DNA of 64,000 nucleotides from contig NZ_BATR01000096.1 of assembly GCF_000739655.1 (NCBI RefSeq), positions 62,001-126,000 on the forward strand, given 5' to 3'. The notes under the pieces were generated by a model. The model worked only from the letters and a program-made list of their open reading frames with translations, was not told the origin of the DNA and did no database searches. This DNA is from Verrucomicrobium sp. BvORR106 (GTDB lineage: Bacteria; Verrucomicrobiota; Verrucomicrobiia; Verrucomicrobiales; Verrucomicrobiaceae). Positions 26,151 to 37,421 of this stretch are shown here, piece after piece. The position numbers were made by a program, and so were the translations under genes. How positions within the stretch are numbered: the stretch's first letter is position 1; the number at the start of each line of letters is the position of its first letter.

Positions 26151-26225
26151 GGACGGCCTGTCATTTCCTACAGACCAACCACTCGAACCCCGCCATTGCA
26201 AAAACCCCCCTCACACCTGCTGCCG

Positions 26226-29200
26226 ATGACCCCCCGTCCATCAGGAATGACCCTCCTTCCGGTCCTCTTCATCATCGCCCTCATTACCATTGTAGTGGTG
26301 ATGTTCTTTGGTCTCTCGACAGTGCAGTATCAATCCTCCACCCAGCAGGCCGCCGCGCAGGACGTGGGGAGCCTGCGGGACATGGCGGTGAACCTGGCCA
26401 TCGGCCAGCTCCGCCAGGGGACCACAGAGAGCAATGCGGTCTGGATCTCGCAGCCTGGCGCCGTGCGTACTTATGCCTCCAATTCCGGGGCTCCCTCACG
26501 CATCTACAAGCTCTACAGCGCAGGGGAGATGGTGACCTCCGCATCAGGGCTCACGGCGGCCGCGCTCAATCTGGAGACAGACGTCCCTCCCTCCTGGCAG
26601 AGTCTGCCGGAAGTCTACGCCGACCTCAATGAGCCAGCGATACGAGATACCGGTGAGCTGGCGTTTCCTGTGCTCGACCCACGCGCCATGGAGAGCAATG
26701 GTGCCGTGCCGCCACCCGGAGCAACCACCCCGGAGGGGTTTCGTTACACCGCGAGCCTGGCTGTGGGCGGATCCGCCGTGGATGGGGTGCATCTGCCCGG
26801 CACATTCCCGGAGGATCAGCGGGTTCCCATGCCGGTGCGGTGGATCTATCAGCTGGCCAATGGCACTTATGGGGTGCTGGATCCGGCAACGAAAGAGTTT
26901 GTTCCCTTCCTGGATCAGGGAAGCGGCACCACACCCAGTGTGGACAATCCCATTATTGGCCGCATTGCCTTCTGGACGGATGACGAGACGAGCAAGGTGA
27001 ATGTCAACACCGCCAGTGAGGGCATCCACTGGGACACGCCTCGTGCCGCCACTCCGGAGGACGTGGCCTATGCTTCACAGACGCCGGTTCGCAACGAGGT
27101 ACAGCGTTTTGGCGGGCACCCCGCATCCACCAGCCTGAGCAGCGTATTCTTTCCCCATGAGCGCCTGGTCCCCGGTGTGGGGCAGGGGAGTGCGCGGCTG
27201 CAGCAGATCTATGACATGGCGCCGCGGGTGAACTACCGCAGTGGTACGGGAGTGGGTGCATCTGCCACCGGCATTCTTGGGGGGAGCGCCAGTCCGGTTG
27301 CGTTTGACAAGGACCGCCTCTACGCGAGCATTGACGAGTTTATTCTACAGGCTCCTGGAGCCAGTCCACCCGCCCAGAGGACCATGCAGCCGCTCCTGGC
27401 TGCAGATCCCTCCAGACTCGCCCGTTTGCGTTTTTTCCTCACTGCTGAGAGTCGTGCGCCGGAGACCACTGCTGCGGGCACACCACGAATCTCCCTGTGG
27501 CCCACCAGCTGGGATCCTGACACGAGCTCGAGCCGGTACACTTCGTTTGACCGTCTCGGCATGTTCGCCGCCACCCTCGGCGGCAAGCCTTACTACTACC
27601 GGCGCTACCTCAATCCCAACAGTGCGCTCACAGAGTACGGATCTTCCAACAGCACAGGGGCCAACTTGGAGAATCTGCGTGGCAACGCTGATTTGTCACG
27701 CTATCTCATTGCCCTCAGCACCCTGACCAAGCAGGGCTACACCGGCTCGCTCAAGGACAAGTATGGTCAGGCCAACATGGCCGCCGGCCTGATCTCGATG
27801 CTGGAGTACGTCCGCCAGACCAACATACACGACACCACGCTCTCCACCACTGGCACAAAGGTGCAGCCATATGATCAGGGGGTTTGGGGGTCAACGTCCT
27901 TTCCTGGAACCGAGACGCACGGGCAAATCATCAATGTGGCCTACACTGCTTTGCCTGCGCCCGTGGTGGATCATCTCAACGAAGATTCCCAGATTCGGGC
28001 CAATGCGCTGAACCGCATCTACACACTTTCCGAGTTTGGTCTCGTGCTGAGTCTCGCGGCAGAGAACCCCAGCTCGGGGCCCAAGTACAATGAAACACTC
28101 TGCACGCAGCTGAAGGTGCCTGCGGGATACAAGGCCATCCAGATTGGCACGGCATTTGAGGGCTTCTGCCCCAGCCAGGGATATTCCATGATCGCCCCGT
28201 CCGCAGGGATTCGCGTGGTGGGACTGGACACCCTGCGCATGGTGACCAGCCAGTCTGGGACTGCTGGCCGTGCCGCCGGTGGAGACGTCACGGGCCCGCA
28301 GCCTACCTACACGCAAACGGCCTTCAACACTTGGGGGAGATGGAATCACAGCGTGCCTCACCTTTGCTACCTCACCGGCATGGCCATGCCGGGTGCTGCG
28401 GCCAAGGTGTCGAAGGGGGTCGACTGGTGGATCGGCTGGGGCGGGTCCGGCGGACGTAGCCTGTATGTGGATGCCCCCACCAAGGCGGGCATCGGCACCA
28501 CCGGCGCCTATGTCACGAACATCACCTCCATTGGCGAGGCGAATTTTTACTTGCCGCAGTTTGGCGAGACTGTTTCGAACCAGACGCAGGCCAGTTTTTA
28601 CAGCCGGGGTTATTTTCTCGTACCCAGCGCGGACACCCACGTCACTCTGAAGTCCGCCACAGCTCTCCAGCTCTACAGCGGCTATGTGAACTACGGTCCC
28701 AGTCATGCGTTGATCCGGCACTACATCACCATCCCCACGGGCATGGTGGTGCCTGTGCCCAAGGCACCGGTGGCATTGCTGCCCACCTGGCGGGAGCGCA
28801 TCGCCGCCGCCAGTGCCAATCGTGCGCGTGCGCCGGAAGTCATTGACCGTGGCGATGTCGTCCGGACCTGGACGGTTCGCCACGGCGACTATCGGCTGGT
28901 TTCCATGCGGGAGAATGAGAAAAGTCACAACGAGACCCACAAGCTCTTCCTGCCTCATCCGGAGTGGAATCCGGGCGAGGCTGGTGGTGAAGCGCAGAAC
29001 AAGCTGCAGATCCATTCCTTCACCAAAGCTGGCGGCGAGTGGGAGCGTCAGCAGCAAGGGGATCCGCGAAGCACAAATTCAGCAGTGGCCCAGCCGGTGG
29101 ATGCTCGGCCGGCCCGTGGTCTGGCCGCTGGCGTCACGTATGCGGAAAAGACCCAGCCCGACTTCACCCGGCTGCCTTCGTCGCCTTTGTACTTTGCCGG

Positions 29201-30335
29201 GAGGCCTGCGAGCTACCCCTACAGCCTGGATCCCAGTGACACACGGGATTGGGACAACGGCACCGGTATCGCGCCTGATGGAGCCTACTGGAACAAGCCA
29301 GATGACGTGGCCAAGATCGCCGATGGCACGATCCCGCCCTATTTTTCCTCCCGGCCTTGGGATGGAGTGCGTCCGGAGGAGCTCAATCAAACCAGTGCGC
29401 CCAACCAGCTTATTCCCTCCGCCGTCATGTTTGGCTCCATCTCCTCAGGGGTGGTCACTGGTTTGCCTTGGACCACTTACCTCTTCCGGCCGAACCTCTC
29501 TCCCACTGGGCACGTGGGGGAGAAAGGCCAGTCTGTGGCGGGCAGCGATCCGAACGCGCCGCCGGATCACACAATCTTGGACTGGTTTTGGATGCCGGTG
29601 TTGCAGCCCTATGCCATCAGCGAGCCCTTCTCCACCGCGGGGAAGATCAACATGAACTACCGGATCGTGCCCTTCACGAACATCCGTCGTGCCACCGGCC
29701 TTCATGCAGTGCTGAAGAGCGAACGGCTGCTGGCCATCCCCAATGATGCCGGGGCCACCTACAAGGATTATGCCAGCGCTTCCGCCAACACTGGCTGGCG
29801 GCACTATCTGGATGTGGACAAGACGCTCCTCCAGTGGGACCTCAAGTTCAACAGCGGCGGCTTCTTCAAAAATGCCAGCGAGATCTGTGAGCAATTCCTC
29901 GTACCCGAAGGGCAGGGCATCTCAGCCACCAGCACCAATGCCTTGCGGGTGGAGATGACGCAGTACTGGGACAATCACCGCCTCACCGGTGACAACACGC
30001 TGGAAAGACCCTATGCCAATCTCTATCCACGCCTTACCACCCGGTCAAACACCTTCCGCGTGCACTATCTGGTTCAAAGCCTGAGGAAAGCCCGAACGAG
30101 TGATCCGCTCACCTTTGATCCTGCCAAAGATGTTGTGACGGGGGCAGCTCAAGGGGACGCGCTGGTGGAGCGCGCCATTGATCCCAGTGATCCTGCGCTC
30201 TCCACCAGCCAGTATGACTACATGGCCAAGCTCAATGCAGGAACCTTCACCACGGATCTTGATTCGGGCGCGCTCAAGTCCCTGGATAGACTCTATACCT
30301 GGCGCGTCCGGCAATTCCGGAACTTCGCGAAGTGA
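26226..30335 (+). CDS. Verru_Chthon cassette protein A, large
   Basis: 1369 residues. A short polar N-terminus and a single helix (GMTLLPVLFIIALITIVVVM) precede SSTQQAAAQDVGSLRDMAVN, the usual opening of cassette protein A. The helix anchors a very large extracytoplasmic domain. Near the C-terminus AISEPFSTAGKINMNYRIVP and FTNIRRATGLHAVLKSERL form the most family-like block. N-terminal features resemble GspK/PilX-like components, so A may cap or organise the pseudopilus; that is inference. The ATG at 26226 is preferred to a TTG at 26196. No enzymatic motif was seen. Confidence 0.85.
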   Translation: MTPRPSGMTLLPVLFIIALITIVVVMFFGLSTVQYQSSTQQAAAQDVGSLRDMAVNLAIGQLRQGTTESNAVWISQPGAVRTYASNSGAPSRIYKLYSAGEMVTSASGLTAAALNLETDVPPSWQSLPEVYADLNEPAIRDTGELAFPVLDPRAMESNGAVPPPGATTPEGFRYTASLAVGGSAVDGVHLPGTFPEDQRVPMPVRWIYQLANGTYGVLDPATKEFVPFLDQGSGTTPSVDNPIIGRIAFWTDDETSKVNVNTASEGIHWDTPRAATPEDVAYASQTPVRNEVQRFGGHPASTSLSSVFFPHERLVPGVGQGSARLQQIYDMAPRVNYRSGTGVGASATGILGGSASPVAFDKDRLYASIDEFILQAPGASPPAQRTMQPLLAADPSRLARLRFFLTAESRAPETTAAGTPRISLWPTSWDPDTSSSRYTSFDRLGMFAATLGGKPYYYRRYLNPNSALTEYGSSNSTGANLENLRGNADLSRYLIALSTLTKQGYTGSLKDKYGQANMAAGLISMLEYVRQTNIHDTTLSTTGTKVQPYDQGVWGSTSFPGTETHGQIINVAYTALPAPVVDHLNEDSQIRANALNRIYTLSEFGLVLSLAAENPSSGPKYNETLCTQLKVPAGYKAIQIGTAFEGFCPSQGYSMIAPSAGIRVVGLDTLRMVTSQSGTAGRAAGGDVTGPQPTYTQTAFNTWGRWNHSVPHLCYLTGMAMPGAAAKVSKGVDWWIGWGGSGGRSLYVDAPTKAGIGTTGAYVTNITSIGEANFYLPQFGETVSNQTQASFYSRGYFLVPSADTHVTLKSATALQLYSGYVNYGPSHALIRHYITIPTGMVVPVPKAPVALLPTWRERIAAASANRARAPEVIDRGDVVRTWTVRHGDYRLVSMRENEKSHNETHKLFLPHPEWNPGEAGGEAQNKLQIHSFTKAGGEWERQQQGDPRSTNSAVAQPVDARPARGLAAGVTYAEKTQPDFTRLPSSPLYFAGRPASYPYSLDPSDTRDWDNGTGIAPDGAYWNKPDDVAKIADGTIPPYFSSRPWDGVRPEELNQTSAPNQLIPSAVMFGSISSGVVTGLPWTTYLFRPNLSPTGHVGEKGQSVAGSDPNAPPDHTILDWFWMPVLQPYAISEPFSTAGKINMNYRIVPFTNIRRATGLHAVLKSERLLAIPNDAGATYKDYASASANTGWRHYLDVDKTLLQWDLKFNSGGFFKNASEICEQFLVPEGQGISATSTNALRVEMTQYWDNHRLTGDNTLERPYANLYPRLTTRSNTFRVHYLVQSLRKARTSDPLTFDPAKDVVTGAAQGDALVERAIDPSDPALSTSQYDYMAKLNAGTFTTDLDSGALKSLDRLYTWRVRQFRNFAK

Positions 30336-30549: not shown

Positions 30550-31731
30550 CTACTCCAGCGGCGGCAACTTCGCGCTGTAGTGCACAGCCCGGTGACGGTT
30601 GTCGTCGTAGGCAAAGTGCAACCACTGCTTGTCCTTGCTCACGAAGCCGTCCGGGTAGTTGATGTTGCCCTTTGGTCCATCGCTGGATTCAGGCACCAGC
30701 ACGCGCTGGTAGGGCCAGGTCTTCAATCCGTCAAAGCTGATCCACAGGGCCAGCGGGGTGCGGCGCTTGGGATTGGGATTGTGCACCATCGCGACGGTGT
30801 CGCCGCCCAGGGGATAGAGCGTGGCCTTGCTGCCGGGATTGGGGACGTCCGTTTTTTCGGCGAACTCCGGCCAGGTCCGGCCCCCGTCTTTGGATTCGGC
30901 GTAGTAGAGGACTCCGCCCAGTTTGTCGCCACGGATGATCATGGCGATGCGTCCGTCGCTCAGTTCTGCCAGATTGTTCTCCGCCCAGCCAAAGTATTTG
31001 TCATCTGTGGTCAGGCGGATGTTGCCATGCTCGGTCCAGGTCTTGCCGCCATCGCTGCTCATGATCACACCGTTGCGGGGATTCGTGAAGGCGCGGTCAA
31101 GCGGGGCTTTGTCCTGCTCTGCCTCCGGCCCGACGTAGTGCTGGAAGGGGAGGAGGATGCGGCCGTCCTTGGTGATGATGTGATTGCGGATGAAAGTGCG
31201 CTCTTTCAGGCGGCCGGGCACCTCCTGAGGCTTGCTCCAGGTCTTGAAGGAGTCGTCGCTGGTCAAGAACCACGAACGCCAGTCATTCGCCCAGTGCTTG
31301 GAGTGGGTGGAGAAATAGAGGGTGGCCCGTCCATCGCGAATCATTAGCTCTGTCGGACCTTGACCGATGGTCTTTCCTTCGCGGGGAAAGCCCACGTCAA
31401 ACGACTCCAGCGGCGTCCAAGTTTTACCTTGATCCTTGCTGCGGGTCACGCCGGTGTAGTTGAGCGGGGAGGGCTCGGTGTCGCCGCCGGCCAGGATGAA
31501 GAGAATCCAGGACCCGTCCGGCAGTTCCCGCAACGTGGTGTCACAGACCATGGAGTTCGGTTTGATCCCGTCATAGGGGATGGAGGAGCGGTCCTGCTTG
31601 GCGTCCTCAGCAGCCTGGACGGTCCAGTCCTTGGCCTGCAGGGGGCTCAGATGGGAAAGAGGAAACAAAGCAGCGGTCAGGGCCAGCCGCGCCAGGCTGT
31701 GGAGTGGGTGAGAGTGCGGTTGAGGATTCAT
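30550..31731 (-). CDS. Sialidase-like BNR-repeat exported protein
   Basis: 393 residues from the ATG at 31731. A signal peptide (SLARLALTAALFPLSHLSPL, QAKD) is followed by a six-bladed propeller with Asp-box motifs S-x-D-x-G-x-T-W: RSKDQGKTWTPL, MSSDGGKTWTEH and ESKDGGRTWPEF. The protein resembles exo-alpha-sialidase-family glycosidases of Planctomycetes/Verrucomicrobiota that act on complex glycans. RIP-type arginines are not clear to me, so true sialidase activity is uncertain. It is convergent with the pseudopilin cassette and divergent from the gene at 31922. Confidence 0.8.
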   Translation of the reverse strand: MNPQPHSHPLHSLARLALTAALFPLSHLSPLQAKDWTVQAAEDAKQDRSSIPYDGIKPNSMVCDTTLRELPDGSWILFILAGGDTEPSPLNYTGVTRSKDQGKTWTPLESFDVGFPREGKTIGQGPTELMIRDGRATLYFSTHSKHWANDWRSWFLTSDDSFKTWSKPQEVPGRLKERTFIRNHIITKDGRILLPFQHYVGPEAEQDKAPLDRAFTNPRNGVIMSSDGGKTWTEHGNIRLTTDDKYFGWAENNLAELSDGRIAMIIRGDKLGGVLYYAESKDGGRTWPEFAEKTDVPNPGSKATLYPLGGDTVAMVHNPNPKRRTPLALWISFDGLKTWPYQRVLVPESSDGPKGNINYPDGFVSKDKQWLHFAYDDNRHRAVHYSAKLPPLE

Positions 31732-31921: not shown

Positions 31922-32713
31922 ATGAAGCGCCGCTCTCTCATTGCATTGGCCAGCACCTCGCTTGCACCTCTTTTGGGGACGCAGTCAGCCGCTGCTGAGG
32001 ATAGACCCAAGAGTGGAGGAAACGACGGAGACACATCGCCGGTCCGTCTCTCCAGCATGGACTGGCTCAAGCGCGCTTTTGAACCTGGTGACTTCGTGGT
32101 GGCCTACTATCTGCGCGATCCGGAGGACGCAGACAGGCGCCCCAAAGTTCCAGGCGCGGATCCGTTCGACGGTGGGGATGCCGGGGCATGGGCAAATGAG
32201 CATGGTGCCAGCTCACCAGCACCCACTACGGCCCCGACTGTAGAGCCGACCCGGAACTTGGGTTATCGTATTCTGAACCATTCCGGTCCGGGACCGGTGA
32301 TGGTTGATGTCGCCGCGCTGATCAGCCGCAAGGTGAAAGAGGCGCGAGTGCCTGGGCCGGAGATCGCTCCATTGGTGGCCGCGCTACTGGACAGCCAAGA
32401 GCTGCTCACCCTTAAAGACTGTTACTCGCCGCGGCATCTCGTCCTTTTCTACGATTCCCTGGGCAGCGTAAAGGCTGGCTTGGAGATCTGCTTTTCCTGC
32501 GAGAGTTTTCGAGTCGTGCCAGTTTTCCAAGAAGGCGTTTCGCAAACGGGTGATCTCCTTACGGTCGCCCGCCTCTTTGACAAACTCGGTCTTCCGTTGG
32601 GACATGAAGGGCTTACCTTGAAAGCTTATGAGGAATTCATCCTCGGTGAGCGTGCTGAAGCGAAGTCGTCTGCAACGCCCGAGGCAGAGGAGAATAGAGG
32701 GGGCGCGCGATGA
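31922..32713 (+). CDS. Uncharacterised exported protein with CxSPR...CFxC motif, copy 1
   Basis: 263 residues. MKRRSLIALASTSLAPLLGT ending AAAED is a signal peptide. The middle is rich in Gly/Ala/Pro/Thr. The C-terminal domain has KDCYSPRHLVLFYDSLGSV, AGLEICFSCESFRVVPV and FDKLGLPLGHEGLTLKAYEE. The next gene repeats this pattern (ACFSPRQLVVFYDPYGSP, VELCFTCRRY), so the pair are tandem paralogues. The three conserved Cys could bind metal or form disulfides outside the cytoplasm. No name is assigned. The stop overlaps the next ATG (ATGA, 32710-32713). Confidence 0.65.
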   Translation: MKRRSLIALASTSLAPLLGTQSAAAEDRPKSGGNDGDTSPVRLSSMDWLKRAFEPGDFVVAYYLRDPEDADRRPKVPGADPFDGGDAGAWANEHGASSPAPTTAPTVEPTRNLGYRILNHSGPGPVMVDVAALISRKVKEARVPGPEIAPLVAALLDSQELLTLKDCYSPRHLVLFYDSLGSVKAGLEICFSCESFRVVPVFQEGVSQTGDLLTVARLFDKLGLPLGHEGLTLKAYEEFILGERAEAKSSATPEAEENRGGAR

Positions 32714-33471
32714 ATTTCAACGAACCGCGCAGCGCCACCGGCTTTGGCAACGTCTGGTCTCCGCTGGTTTCATTGGCTGGTGCGGCTGCGGTCTTGATCG
32801 TGGCAAGCATTCCCATCGTGCCCAAACCACTGTCCCAGCTAAGCGGTCGCAATGCCTGCGTAGCGGTCTTTGGCCCCGGATCTCAGTCCACGGGGCGCTT
32901 TGTGACGGCTTCTCACGAAGATTTGGCCGATATATTCCTCCAGGAGTTGCTGGCTCCAGGAAACTTCGTGATGGCCTATTCGATGCATGATCCAGTCGAG
33001 GAAAAGGGTTCCCGGTCGGACTATTCGATCCGGAACTCCAATGATGAACTCAACGTCCGTGATCTGGTGAGCCGTGTGGCACATCAGGTGCGACTTCGGA
33101 ATGCTGTAGCCACCAGTGTCATGAAGTCGCTGTTGGTCAGTCGGCTGGAGTTGGATCCCGCAGCGTGCTTTTCTCCCCGGCAGCTAGTGGTGTTCTATGA
33201 TCCTTATGGTTCGCCGGTAGGGGTCGTGGAGCTGTGCTTCACTTGCCGGAGGTACACCCTCGCCCGGCCCGGGGTGCGCACGCTATTCTTTGGGAGAGGG
33301 GACCTGCTGGCTGTGGCTACCACCCTCAAGGAGGCCGGATTGGCCATTGGGCAGGAAGTGCCTGATTTGGCGACTTACGCTGCGGGACTCCAGCGGAGCA
33401 GGGACAACTGGCTGAAATGGACGGATGAGGCCGCAGCTGAAGACGAGGCCAGCCATCAGCACTGGCGTTGA
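32710..33471 (+). CDS. Uncharacterised membrane-anchored protein with CxSPR...CFxC motif, copy 2
   Basis: 253 residues. An N-terminal helix (WSPLVSLAGAAAVLIVASIP) probably anchors it. Shared with copy 1 are the early block GNFVMAYSMHDPVEE (copy 1: GDFVVAYYLRDPEDA) and DLVSRVAHQVR. Also shared are CFSPRQLVVFYDPYGSPVGV, ELCFTCRRYTL and LKEAGLAIGQEVPDLATYA. Translational coupling to copy 1 and shared motifs suggest the two act together. Function unknown. Confidence 0.65.
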   Translation: MNFNEPRSATGFGNVWSPLVSLAGAAAVLIVASIPIVPKPLSQLSGRNACVAVFGPGSQSTGRFVTASHEDLADIFLQELLAPGNFVMAYSMHDPVEEKGSRSDYSIRNSNDELNVRDLVSRVAHQVRLRNAVATSVMKSLLVSRLELDPAACFSPRQLVVFYDPYGSPVGVVELCFTCRRYTLARPGVRTLFFGRGDLLAVATTLKEAGLAIGQEVPDLATYAAGLQRSRDNWLKWTDEAAAEDEASHQHWR

Positions 33472-33657
33472 CCCGTGCCCAAGCAGCCGCCCGTGTACGT
33501 ATTAGACCGTCCATCCGGACGCTTGACCGCAGAAGATATAGTGAACTTTCTGGTTGAAGGTGGATGGCATTTTATCGTCCAATCTCGCGTGCCCGGTACA
33601 TCCTTATCCTGAGGCCCTTTCTCTAAAACACCCATCTTGAACCTCTTGAGCAACTCT

Positions 33658-33957
33658 ATGAAAAGAACCCAATATTCCTTGCTGGCCGCTCTCACAGTTG
33701 GCCTCGCTTCCTGCAGCAGCGGTCCCAACGCCCAGACCGGTACGGTGCTCGGCGCTCTCGGTGGCGCCGCGGCGGGCGGCATCATCGGTCACCAGAGCGG
33801 TCGCGGCCTGGAAGGTGCCGCTATCGGTGCAGGCCTCGGCGGCCTCGGCGGCAACATGATCGGCGGTGCGCAGGATCAGCGCAACTATGAGCGTCGCGAG
33901 TACTACCGCCGCGGCGGTGGCTACGGTGGATATGGTGGCGGCTACGGCGGGTACTGA
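33658..33957 (+). CDS. Glycine-zipper lipoprotein
   Basis: 99 residues from the ATG at 33658. MKRTQYSLLAALTVGLAS plus Cys19 is a lipoprotein signal. It is followed by glycine-zipper repeats (LGALGGAAAGGIIGHQSGRG, AAIGAGLGGLGGNMIGGA) of the kind that insert into or pack against membranes, as in outer-membrane SlyB/OsmB-type proteins. The tail YRRGGGYGGYGGGYGGY is Gly/Tyr-rich. A strong terminator follows at 34017. Likely a small envelope protein; specific role unknown. Confidence 0.8.
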   Translation: MKRTQYSLLAALTVGLASCSSGPNAQTGTVLGALGGAAAGGIIGHQSGRGLEGAAIGAGLGGLGGNMIGGAQDQRNYERREYYRRGGGYGGYGGGYGGY

Positions 33958-34016
33958 GTTGCCCTCCAGGCTTTGCCGTGTCGACCTTGTGAGGTCGGAG
34001 TGCAGATGCCCTTTTG

Positions 34017-34051
34017 GTGGCCGTCCTCCCGAGGACGGCCACGTTTTGTTT
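34017..34051 (+). terminator. Rho-independent terminator after the glycine-zipper lipoprotein
   Basis: Stem GTGGCCGTCC / GGACGGCCAC with a small loop, followed by TTTTGTTT on the plus strand. Confidence 0.85.
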
Positions 34052-34151
34052 ATCATTCCGGTCTAGCCCTCCATCCAGCCTGCCACTTGATGGGCAGAGG
34101 GGCGTAGGGTGGACGAATGCCGGGTGATGTGGCATCAGTTCGGGCGCAGTC

Positions 34152-35171
34152 ATGACGAGTTCCCCGGTTGAATCCCCGCCTCCATGCGATTTGCCAGCAG
34201 GGATGGCTGAGGCCGTGAATGAGACTGTGGAGGGGGTGGCAGAGGGGCACCCGGTTCCCGTCTTCCGCCAGCTTCGTCTTTTCGCGGCGGAGAATCCCAT
34301 GCGCGCTCGTTTTCCGCGCGCTTTCATGCAGACAGTCCCTCGTGAGCCCGGGGTGTACTACTTTCGTGATGTCGCGGGGAAGTTGCTCTATGTCGGCCAG
34401 TCTCATGAGCTGCGCAAACGAGTGGGAAGCTACCGTCACATTCATCCCGATCGTCATCCGCGCCGGTTGGTGCGGCTGGTTCATCAGGTGAGGCAGATCG
34501 AGTGGGAAATATGCGAGAGTCCAGAAGCTGCCATTGAGCGCGAACGGGTGCTCTTGCTCGAACTCCGCCCGGGGTTTAATCGCGCCGGGGTGTGGAAGCC
34601 GCCGCCTTGGTGGTTGCGCGTGAGTTTGGATACCGGCGTGGAAGGGCAGGGGAATGACTTGTCGCCCCTGCTGCGGGTGGACCTCTGCACCGATGCATCG
34701 CTCATTGCCAATGCCGCTCCGGTTGCTGCTGCCATGGAAGATCTGGTCGGTGAAGGTTCAGGCAGCCCCTTGCGCGCGGAGCGCCAGAGCTTCTTACTGG
34801 GGCCATTTCCTTCCTCTTTCCGCTGGGTGCATGCCGCGATGCTGCGATGCCTGCATCGATGGTTGTTTCCAGAAATCCCGCTGCACGCCCTGCCGGCGGG
34901 GCTCATGAGGGAAAAAGCTCTGCGTCAGGTGGCGTGGGCGCTCCCAACCACGATGACGGCAGAGGAGGTGGCCCGGCAGATCTGTGAGTGCTTCCAGGTA
35001 TCCTCCGGTGACGGCGATTCCACCGCGAGTTCGCTGCTCAGTGCCTTCACCTCGCTCGTTCACGACGACCTACCACCCATGGAGAAAGAGTTTTGGCACT
35101 CCCAGGTGGAAGCTGTGGTGAAGTTTGTGGAGAAGTTGGGCGGGCGCCCGTTAAAGGGGGAGGCTCAGTAA
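34152..35171 (+). CDS. GIY-YIG nuclease domain protein with long C-terminal extension
   Basis: 339 residues. The GIY-YIG domain is at about residues 62-145: EPGVYYFRDVAGKLLYVGQS (GIY and YIG motifs), LRKRVGSYR (catalytic Arg) and PEAAIERERVLLLELRPGFN (Glu). This resembles the UvrC/Cho N-terminal nuclease. The remaining ~190 residues do not look like the UvrC C-terminal nuclease or UvrB-binding region and have no name I recognise. DNA repair is likely but unproven. The stop TAA lies inside the left end of an R2 repeat element (35164-35312), so the original C-terminus may have differed. Confidence 0.8.
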   Translation: MTSSPVESPPPCDLPAGMAEAVNETVEGVAEGHPVPVFRQLRLFAAENPMRARFPRAFMQTVPREPGVYYFRDVAGKLLYVGQSHELRKRVGSYRHIHPDRHPRRLVRLVHQVRQIEWEICESPEAAIERERVLLLELRPGFNRAGVWKPPPWWLRVSLDTGVEGQGNDLSPLLRVDLCTDASLIANAAPVAAAMEDLVGEGSGSPLRAERQSFLLGPFPSSFRWVHAAMLRCLHRWLFPEIPLHALPAGLMREKALRQVAWALPTTMTAEEVARQICECFQVSSGDGDSTASSLLSAFTSLVHDDLPPMEKEFWHSQVEAVVKFVEKLGGRPLKGEAQ

Positions 35172-35312
35172 AAGAAGCGAGGGACATTCTTGTCCCGGTT
35201 CGAGCCGGGTGTCCCATAAGGAGGCCGCGGCGATGTCTGTCGGTCGGTATTGCCTGCCGCTGGATCGTGCGATGAGTCCGGGACTGGAAAGTCCCTGCCT
35301 CCTTTTACTGAG
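35164..35312. repeat. R2 interspersed element, copy 1
   Basis: Inverted ends CTCAGTAAAAG / CTTTTACTGAG bound a 149-bp element. Inside the ends are two small hairpins (GGGACATTCTTGTCCC and GGGACTGGAAAGTCCC). Copies 2 and 3 are at 47654 and 60110. No open reading frame for a transposase. Confidence 0.85.
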
Positions 35313-35376
35313 AGGCGCTGGGCGTACTCCTTCGCTTGACCCGTCCGCCGGGCCTGCTTAGGGAGAGCACAATCTC

Positions 35377-36303
35377 ATGAGCTCCCCCACCAGCCCATCC
35401 ACCGCCCCTGCCTTTGACTCCACCATCCCTGCCATCGGCATCATCGGTGGGAGTGGTCTGTACGACATTGAAGGTCTGACGGACCGCGAGGAGATTCGCG
35501 TGAGCACGCCCTTTGGTGATCCTTCGGACGTGATCGTCACCGGCGTCCTGGCGGGGCGGCGAGTCTATTTCCTGCCCCGACACGGTCGTGGCCATCGTCT
35601 CCTGCCCACGGAACTGCCGCACCGGGCCAACATCTACGCGCTGCGCTCCCTGGGAGTGCGCTTCATCATTGCGGTCACTGCCGTGGGCAGCCTGCGTCAG
35701 GAGTATCGGCCCCGGGACATCGTCCTCCCGCATCAGTTCTTTGACCGGCTTTCCCGCCGGGATCAGCACACTTTCTTTGGTCGTGGGATCGTGGCGCATG
35801 TCGCTTTTGCAGACCCGATCAGCACCGGCTTGCGCCTGCTCCTGGCCGAGGCGGCCCGCGAGGAGGGCGCGACCGTCCACGACGGTGGCACCTACGTCTG
35901 CATGGACGGCCCTGCCTTCTCGACCCGGGCGGAGTCCAATGCGAACCGTCAGCTCGGATTTGACGTCATCGGCATGACCAACCTCCCCGAGGCCAAGCTG
36001 GCCCGTGAGGCGGAGATTGCCCTCGCCACTCTCGCGATGGTGACTGACTACGACTGCTGGAAGATCGAGGAGGAGCCTGTCACGGCCGAGACCGTGGTGG
36101 GGCATCTGCACGCGAACGCTGCCCGGGCAAAAAACATCGTGGCCCGGGTCATTGCCCGTATTCCCACGGTCGCCAGCTGGCCCGAGCACTCCGCGTTGAA
36201 CGGTGCCATGCTTACCCCCCGCAGCTTCTGGCCCTCAGAGACCGTGTCGTCTCTGGAGGCCATTCTCAGCCCGTATCTAGGCGAAGCCGCAACCGGGGAG
36301 TAG
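35377..36303 (+). CDS. mtnP: S-methyl-5'-thioadenosine phosphorylase
   Basis: 308 residues of the purine nucleoside phosphorylase fold. Landmarks: IGIIGGSGLYDIEGL, YFLPRHGRGHRLLPTELPHR (phosphate and base contacts), IIAVTAVGSLRQEYRPRDIV, YVCMDGPAFSTRAESNANRQ and VIGMTNLPEAKLAREAEIAL. It splits methylthioadenosine, a by-product of polyamine synthesis, to adenine and methylthioribose-1-phosphate. TNLPEAKLA is typical of MTAP-type members rather than inosine/guanosine phosphorylases. The gene starts shortly after an R2 element, with a CT-rich leader. Confidence 0.92.
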   Translation: MSSPTSPSTAPAFDSTIPAIGIIGGSGLYDIEGLTDREEIRVSTPFGDPSDVIVTGVLAGRRVYFLPRHGRGHRLLPTELPHRANIYALRSLGVRFIIAVTAVGSLRQEYRPRDIVLPHQFFDRLSRRDQHTFFGRGIVAHVAFADPISTGLRLLLAEAAREEGATVHDGGTYVCMDGPAFSTRAESNANRQLGFDVIGMTNLPEAKLAREAEIALATLAMVTDYDCWKIEEEPVTAETVVGHLHANAARAKNIVARVIARIPTVASWPEHSALNGAMLTPRSFWPSETVSSLEAILSPYLGEAATGE

Positions 36304-36422
36304 AGCTACGTGGCCCTGACCATGCACCTCGAGCATTTTCCGCCTTTTCAACCCGGAGGGATCGTTTACGGTGCTTAACCAATCCGCCCCCCCCATTTCA
36401 CCTTAAAAGATTTTTTCATCAC

Positions 36423-37421
36423 GTGACCAAACCTCGCATGCTATTCTCCCTCTGGCTCAGTGTCATCCTCGCAGGTGGGCAAACGGGTTGCTCCGTGCTG
36501 AAGAAGGAACCGCAGGTGGTCACGCCTGCACCCATCCAGAGTCGGCCCACGCCGCCGCCCAACACGGGAGGTGGTCTCAAACGTGGTCTGCAGAACCCGG
36601 ATTTCTACCAGATCCCCAAGGTCCCGCCGCCGGGAGCCCGTTACTCGTACTCCTCGGTGCGCGTGAACGGCCCGTACATCGCGATGACGTTTGACGATGG
36701 CCCGCACCCCACGAATACGCCGCGGCTGCTGAACATGCTGAAGGAGCGCAACATCAAGGCGACCTTCTATGTGGTGGGGCAGCTGGCACGGGAATACCCC
36801 AACATCATCCGCCGCATCCTGGCGGAAGGGCACGAAATCGGTAACCACACCTACTCCCACCCCATCCTCACCAAGGTGTCTGACGACCGGATCCGCAAGG
36901 AACTGGGGGATACCCACAAGGCACTGGTGGACATCGCTGGCTATCATCCCCGCACCATGCGCCCTCCTGGTGGCGGCACCAATGCCCGCCTGAAGCAGTG
37001 GTTCCATGACGAGTACGGCTACAGCACCATCATGTGGAGTGTGGATCCCATGGACTGGAAGCGCCCGGGCGTGAGCGTCGTCACCAGCCGACTGGTGAAC
37101 GGGGCCCATCCTGGTGCCATCCTCCTGGCACACGATCTGCATGCTCCTACCATCGACGCCATGCCCAACACGCTGGATGGCCTCCTCTCCAAAGGTTACC
37201 GCTTCGTCACCGTGAGCCAGCTCATCAACATGGAAGTGGCAGCGCCCGCCGGTGGTGCTGCTGTGACCGGCAACGCGGCCCCGGCAGGCAATGCCCCGGC
37301 ACCGTTGCCAGGTCTGGGCTCTCCCATGAGCGCCCCGGCCCCGTCCGCAGCTCCTGGCGTGGGGTTCCCCCAGCAGCTGCCGTCAGAGGCACCTCTGGCC
37401 CCGGCGCCTGGCGGTTTCTAA
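36423..37421 (+). CDS. Exported polysaccharide deacetylase (NodB domain)
   Basis: 332 residues. The NodB homology domain shows YIAMTFDDGPHPTNTPRLLN (Asp-Asp), KATFYVVGQLA, EGHEIGNHTYSHP (metal-binding HxxxH), MRPPGGGTN and HPGAILLAHDLHAPTIDA. These residues bind a divalent metal and catalyse N-deacetylation of peptidoglycan, chitin-like or exopolysaccharide GlcNAc. The N-terminus is a signal sequence; Cys23 (GGQTGC) may be lipidated, although the lipobox is weak. The C-terminal 80 residues are Ala/Pro-rich. A GTG at 36423 is chosen because it keeps the basic n-region; ATG 36438 is the alternative. Confidence 0.88.
   Translation: MTKPRMLFSLWLSVILAGGQTGCSVLKKEPQVVTPAPIQSRPTPPPNTGGGLKRGLQNPDFYQIPKVPPPGARYSYSSVRVNGPYIAMTFDDGPHPTNTPRLLNMLKERNIKATFYVVGQLAREYPNIIRRILAEGHEIGNHTYSHPILTKVSDDRIRKELGDTHKALVDIAGYHPRTMRPPGGGTNARLKQWFHDEYGYSTIMWSVDPMDWKRPGVSVVTSRLVNGAHPGAILLAHDLHAPTIDAMPNTLDGLLSKGYRFVTVSQLINMEVAAPAGGAAVTGNAAPAGNAPAPLPGLGSPMSAPAPSAAPGVGFPQQLPSEAPLAPAPGGF

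Follow-up and report, generated by a model that had tools for sequence, protein, structure and literature searches.

A tandem gene pair of Verrucomicrobium sp. BvORR106 and a domain family with a conserved Cys/Pro/His signature and a putative envelope site

Two overlapping genes of Verrucomicrobium sp. BvORR106, here called ORF1 and ORF2, encode proteins that share a motif containing three cysteines. A first, sequence-only reading of the locus proposed that the two proteins form a secreted and membrane-anchored two-component device. The locus raises the question of whether the genes are a functional pair or two copies of a more widespread domain, and of what the shared cysteines might do. In this study, we report the analysis of the pair in a window of 64,000 nucleotides (contig NZ_BATR01000096.1, positions 62,001 to 126,000), taken from a genome of 8.69 Mb in 209 contigs, together with the distribution, conservation and predicted structure of the domain family to which both proteins belong.

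The overlapping genes and their N-termini

Both genes were found on the plus strand (Table 1), and the tandem paralogy and 4-nt overlap noticed earlier were confirmed, the two proteins matching each other by blastp at E 4e-16 with 27% identity over 190 columns. Against a profile of 34 relatives, which included neither ORF, ORF1 scored 69.5 bits and ORF2 54.3 bits, and no shuffled copy among 1,000 (500 per ORF) exceeded 1.6 bits; on these sequence comparisons ORF1 and ORF2 are homologous beyond chance. The CxSPR...CFxC motifs quoted in the sequence-only reading are exact in both proteins, as CYSPRHLVLFYD...EICFSC in ORF1 and CFSPRQLVVFYD...ELCFTC in ORF2, with the spacing C-x22-C-x2-C in each. 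The three Cys and the Pro of the signature are present in both, and the His that follows P-[RH] is present in ORF1 and replaced by Gln in ORF2. ORF1 contains exactly three cysteines (167, 190 and 193), all inside the motif; ORF2 carries Cys50 in addition to its three motif cysteines. A further block had been described as '(G)DFVVAY' in both proteins. This wording fits ORF1 only, because the block reads GDFVVAYYLRDP in ORF1 and GNFVMAYSMHDP in ORF2.

Table 1. Positions of the features of the locus within the window
Feature	Coordinates	Strand	Basis
ORF1 (P0001), 263 aa, putatively exported family member	31922..32713	+	blastp, profile score
ORF2, 253 aa, duplicate in tandem with ORF1; disrupted in G021 and G049	32710..33471	+	
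ATGA in which the ORF1 stop and the ORF2 start overlap, 4 bases	32710..32713	+	
Twin-arginine-like signal of ORF1, MKRRSLIALASTSLAPLLGTQSAAA	31922..31996	+	sequence and regular expression
GDFVVAYYLRDP block of ORF1, predicted first strand of the domain	32087..32122	+	blastp, structure prediction
ORF1 signature CYSPRH...EICFSC; Cys167, Cys190, Cys193	32420..32500	+	
Hydrophobic segment of ORF2, residues 19-37, hydropathy 2.48	32764..32820	+	hydropathy
GNFVMAYSMHDP block of ORF2	32959..32994	+	blastp
ORF2 signature CFSPRQ...ELCFTC; Gln at the usual His	33166..33246	+	
High-identity tract to G021 (BvORR034), within ORF2	about 32940..33420	+	0.83-0.97 per 60-base bin

The N-terminus of ORF1, MKRRSLIALASTSLAPLLGTQSAAA, has a best 19-residue hydropathy of 1.22. 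Its orthologues start with MNRRALI in two congeners, namely Verrucomicrobium sp. BvORR034 (G021, a draft assembly) and a genome of the same genus in a single contig of 8,220,857 bases (G049), which we take to be V. spinosum. The hydrophobic segment of ORF2 is probably a membrane anchor, judging from its hydropathy, and a secreted ORF1 beside an anchored ORF2 is therefore plausible from the two N-termini. Among 110 rows of the family, regular expressions found upstream lipobox-like strings in 54 and RR-type starts in nine, the latter including ORF1 and its orthologues in G021 and G049. In other bacteria the domain is fused to the Pfam domains OmpA (L106), LprI (L119) and SdiA-regulated (L121) and to HEAT repeats (L091). 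These fusions and the lipobox-like and RR-type starts would fit a location in the cell envelope.

Divergent to ORF1, positions 30550-31731 (minus strand) encode a secreted, sialidase-like BNR-repeat protein (PF13088, E 4.4e-31). An ORF of 1,379 residues with a pilin-like hydrophobic start, GMTLLPVLFIIALITIVVVMFF, occupies 26196-30335 (plus strand) and is also present in BvORR034. Downstream of the pair, 33637-37421 (plus strand) encodes a glycine-zipper lipoprotein, a GIY-YIG protein, a PNP_UDP_1 phosphorylase and a polysaccharide deacetylase. Clustering the neighbours of 49 family loci gave no recurrent partner beyond close synteny.

Distribution of the domain and pairing of its genes

The domain has at least seven occurrences in the BvORR106 genome, where further members lie on contigs C23, C101, C177, C191 and C106 and a weak member match on C29 (E 0.004). 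Matches were found in 30 of 68 genomes at the family level, covering all 11 of 11 genera, in 26 of 75 genomes at the order level, and in at least 14 of 288 genomes of the phylum sample, this last count being a lower bound because at most 10 candidates per genome were scored. A scan with a pattern that demanded C1, P and [HR]H, and left the cysteines of CFxC free, returned 40 named loci. Most are in Verrucomicrobiota, and the others are in a Planctomycetaceae bacterium, a Sumerlaeia bacterium and Bacteroidota, including Crocinitomix and Saprospiraceae. The search of other phyla proposed in the sequence-only reading thus places the domain in Verrucomicrobiota, Planctomycetes, Sumerlaeia and Bacteroidota. 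Samples drawn from the phyla of two of these genomes, with the starting genome counted, gave matches in 7 of 198 genomes (Crocinitomix) and in 16 of 199, most of them weak (Planctomycetaceae); the Crocinitomix genome itself had six matches at E up to 0.01.

A second subfamily, CFxPRHG[IV]R...[DH]xLICYxC, was observed at L032, L034, L078 and L081 (P0006 and L081 being examples). Its members are single genes, and it is also present in BvORR106 on C106 and C191. A search of plasmids gave no match for ORF2, one canonical member or one divergent member, and with these matches absent a mobile origin was dropped from consideration.

Pairing was counted over 86 genes in 49 genomes, with gene places taken from the order, phylum, family and own-genome search tables. 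Twelve of these genes are adjacent, in six pairs, three of which are the ORF1/ORF2 locus itself in three genomes; the others are at G021:C76, G066:C8 and G064:C14. Two motif ORFs occurred within the flanks at 2 of the 40 named loci, so that the check for conserved pairing found mostly single relatives. Among these, the tandem pairs at G064:C14 and G021:C76 (L043 and L044) differ from the ORF1/ORF2 locus in origin or position. In the family tree, in which some forks are weak, the rows of ORF1 and ORF2 form one group (91/95), the ORF2 rows cluster on a long branch (97/93), and the G066 pair falls with G056 (98/97). On this tree ORF1/ORF2 is a duplication of its own lineage, separate from the G066 pair, and the grouping leads us to read the adjacent pairs as separate local duplications.

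State of ORF2 in the genus

BvORR034 has the same tandem arrangement and overlap, but codon 126 of its ORF2 is an in-frame TAG. G049 has an open ORF1; in its ORF2 region a stop follows the hydrophobic segment, the first-strand block is missing, and the frame shifts beyond a CSxC version of the motif (frames read by eye). ORF2 is hence damaged in both of the other near-complete congeners examined, and ORF1 is open in both; a fourth genome of the genus (G384, 76% complete) shows only a 65-residue open fragment and is uninformative on this point. Substitution rates against BvORR034 (NG86) were dN 0.224 and dS 1.057 for ORF1, and dN 0.121 and dS 0.336 for ORF2. The low dS of ORF2 coincides with the high-identity tract (Table 1), directly upstream of which identity is 0.70-0.75 per 60-base bin, and the tract is probably the trace of a recent exchange between the BvORR106 and BvORR034 lineages. 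ORF2 may still be used in BvORR106, since it is intact there and its dN/dS is 0.36, not 1. Across the genus, ORF2 is best read from these comparisons as a decaying, membrane-anchored and site-altered duplicate under loss, with the limit that the stop in BvORR034 comes from a draft assembly.

The proposal of a two-component device can be weighed against these results. The overlap, which would couple translation, is found in BvORR034 as well, the N-termini of the two proteins differ, and the dN/dS of ORF2 is below 1, all of which speak for a device. Against it, ORF2 is broken in two related bacteria that keep ORF1 open, which makes a working pair unlikely; moreover, the relatives are mostly single, the pairs have more than one origin and ORF2 is without the signature His. 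We regard a secreted/anchored device as very improbable. The pair itself is, on the sequence evidence, an unremarkable case of tandem duplication in which one copy is decaying, and the sequence-only reading was right about the family signature and over-read the pairing.

Signature, predicted structure and the putative site

Conservation of the signature was scored on 109 distinct profile-aligned rows (111 profile rows, reduced to 110 by one duplicate and to 109 by one row without letters at the site). C1 is conserved in 108 of the 109, P in 108, C2 in 103, C3 in 108 and His in 97, counts to be read with the facts that the profile behind the family search carries all signature residues and that, for the named rows, the conservation of C1, P and [HR]H is partly built in because the search pattern demanded them. 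The residue preceding the signature His is His in 66 rows and Arg in 37. The signature His is lost in 12 rows, several divergent ones having L, M, N, D, A or Y, and Gln occurs in two rows only, ORF2 and its BvORR034 copy. C2 is lost in six rows, which have S, S, G, D, A and Y; four of these retain C1 and C3, L060 is also without C1, and L145 is also without C3. The putative site thus tolerates loss, given the rows that lack His or C2. The cysteines are a hallmark of the whole family, and a metal or disulfide site, as suggested earlier, would be the natural reading of them. Homologues that routinely occur singly and do not conserve the cysteines had been named as evidence that would count against the earlier proposal; the relatives are routinely single, but the cysteines are kept.

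The structural modelling that had been recommended for the cysteine cluster gave a confident model of the BvORR034 orthologue of P0004, a canonical member (mean pLDDT 92.9, pTM 0.86), and an ORF1 model with mean pLDDT 80.7 and pTM 0.77. In the canonical model a strand at 95-100 follows C90, a second strand at 106-113 has C113 as its last residue, and C116 sits in the turn after it. The register of this hairpin (loop 101-105) would set C90 opposite C116 and P93 opposite C113, and from this register, read from the secondary-structure string, the three cysteines and His95 should cluster. The named loci omitted from one or both of the structure alignments include L095 and L117. Neither ORF1 nor a 24-row profile matched any PDB sequence, and Foldseek gave no match at E up to 0.001, either against the PDB for the canonical and ORF1 models or against BFVD for the canonical model. 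VIA-align 2 reached at most Z 2.3 for the canonical model (rmsd 4.3, 61 aligned) and Z 5.3 for ORF1 (rmsd 4.0, 99 aligned), the latter with 4r7r, a putative lipoprotein of Clostridium perfringens. Kinship to any VIA-align 2 or Foldseek match, 4r7r included, was not accepted, and the absence of a fold match in the PDB or BFVD does not prove a new fold.

The domain is absent from the family libraries searched: ORF1 and ORF2 matched nothing in Pfam or NCBIfam at E up to 1, and for the family members no model reached its cut-off in the copies of these libraries that were searched. Four members had no match in PHROGs, and one of four had a single weak PADLOC match (E 0.028). Matches to Perm-CXXC, two_CW and similar models were single, lay under their cut-offs and were set aside. 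A divergent form of TIGR02117 (chp_urease_rgn, NCBIfam), a conserved hypothetical family of the urease region, was considered because 3 of 34 members matched it weakly (E up to 1, with a best E of 4.5e-4) over one helix and the stretch that follows. That best member, however, scored 19.8 bits against a curated cut-off of 131, the two profiles aligned over 18 columns of one helix with a probability of 0.5%, and the Asn-Thr-Cys-Asn-x-Trp stretch of TIGR02117 fails to align with the domain. Membership was dropped after comparison with TIGR02117's own sequences, and we give it a negligible chance. TRASH/YHS-type metal domains also have three cysteines with a long first spacing, but their spacing, presumably C-x19-22-C-x3-C, differs from C-x22-C-x2-C of ORF1 and ORF2 in the last gap; YHS-type Pfam models gave no match at E up to 1 among the scanned members. 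Thioredoxin-like proteins resemble the domain as exported proteins with a CxxC (CFxC here), whereas the domain has a nearly invariant third Cys. Only one of 34 members matched Thioredoxin_8, at E 0.49, and fold comparisons of the domain models gave no clear match to anything. In literature searches, the titles and abstract openings listed did not name the motif C-x2-P-[RH]-H...C-F-x-C.

Taken with the predicted model, the signature suggests how the domain may be built. It would be exported to the cell envelope, either as a soluble protein or with a lipid or membrane anchor, and would form a small alpha/beta unit, with C-x-x-P-[HR]-H running into a hairpin of two strands and C-F-x-C closing that hairpin. 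With these elements at the entry and the end of the hairpin, the three cysteines and the His would meet at its base and form one putative site, which would most probably bind a thiophilic metal ion or act as a redox-active thiol/disulfide. ORF1 would retain the full Cys3-His site, and ORF2 would be a membrane-anchored copy with Gln for His that is being lost in the genus and is not an obligate partner of ORF1. The signature counts, the confinement of ORF1's three cysteines to the motif and the confident canonical model all argue for a Cys3(-His) site, and the rows without the His or C2 count against it. We hold it an even call that the family carries such a metal or thiol site in the envelope, with ORF2 as its decaying anchored duplicate.

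The main rival is a purely structural role, in which the cysteines, as one disulfide plus a spare Cys, stabilise a binding or inhibitor domain of the envelope that has no metal or redox function. Export to an oxidising compartment is consistent with this, as are the fusion of one relative to LprI, a lysozyme-inhibitor family, and the usual retention of C1 and C3 in rows without C2. Against it, the third Cys and the His are conserved nearly as strictly as the other two cysteines, and ORF1 has no other Cys. A structural disulfide is in our judgement a serious though tentative possibility.

Returning to the Cys3(-His) site, it is a rather doubtful prospect that the domain is a previously undescribed small fold whose Cys3-His envelope centre represents an extracytoplasmic metal or redox site of a new class. 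Transposon-insertion and targeted-deletion genetics already exist for Verrucomicrobium spinosum (PMC12283558). The domain deserves a name, because no Pfam or NCBIfam cut-off was reached, its model is confident, it has at least seven copies in one genome and its Cys/His signature is nearly invariant, and that signature is within reach of a simple binding assay. If the new-class reading is true, a new-fold Cys3-His site would be carried in several phyla by lipoproteins, twin-arginine-type proteins and fusions to the peptidoglycan-binding OmpA, and would have been repeatedly duplicated within genomes.
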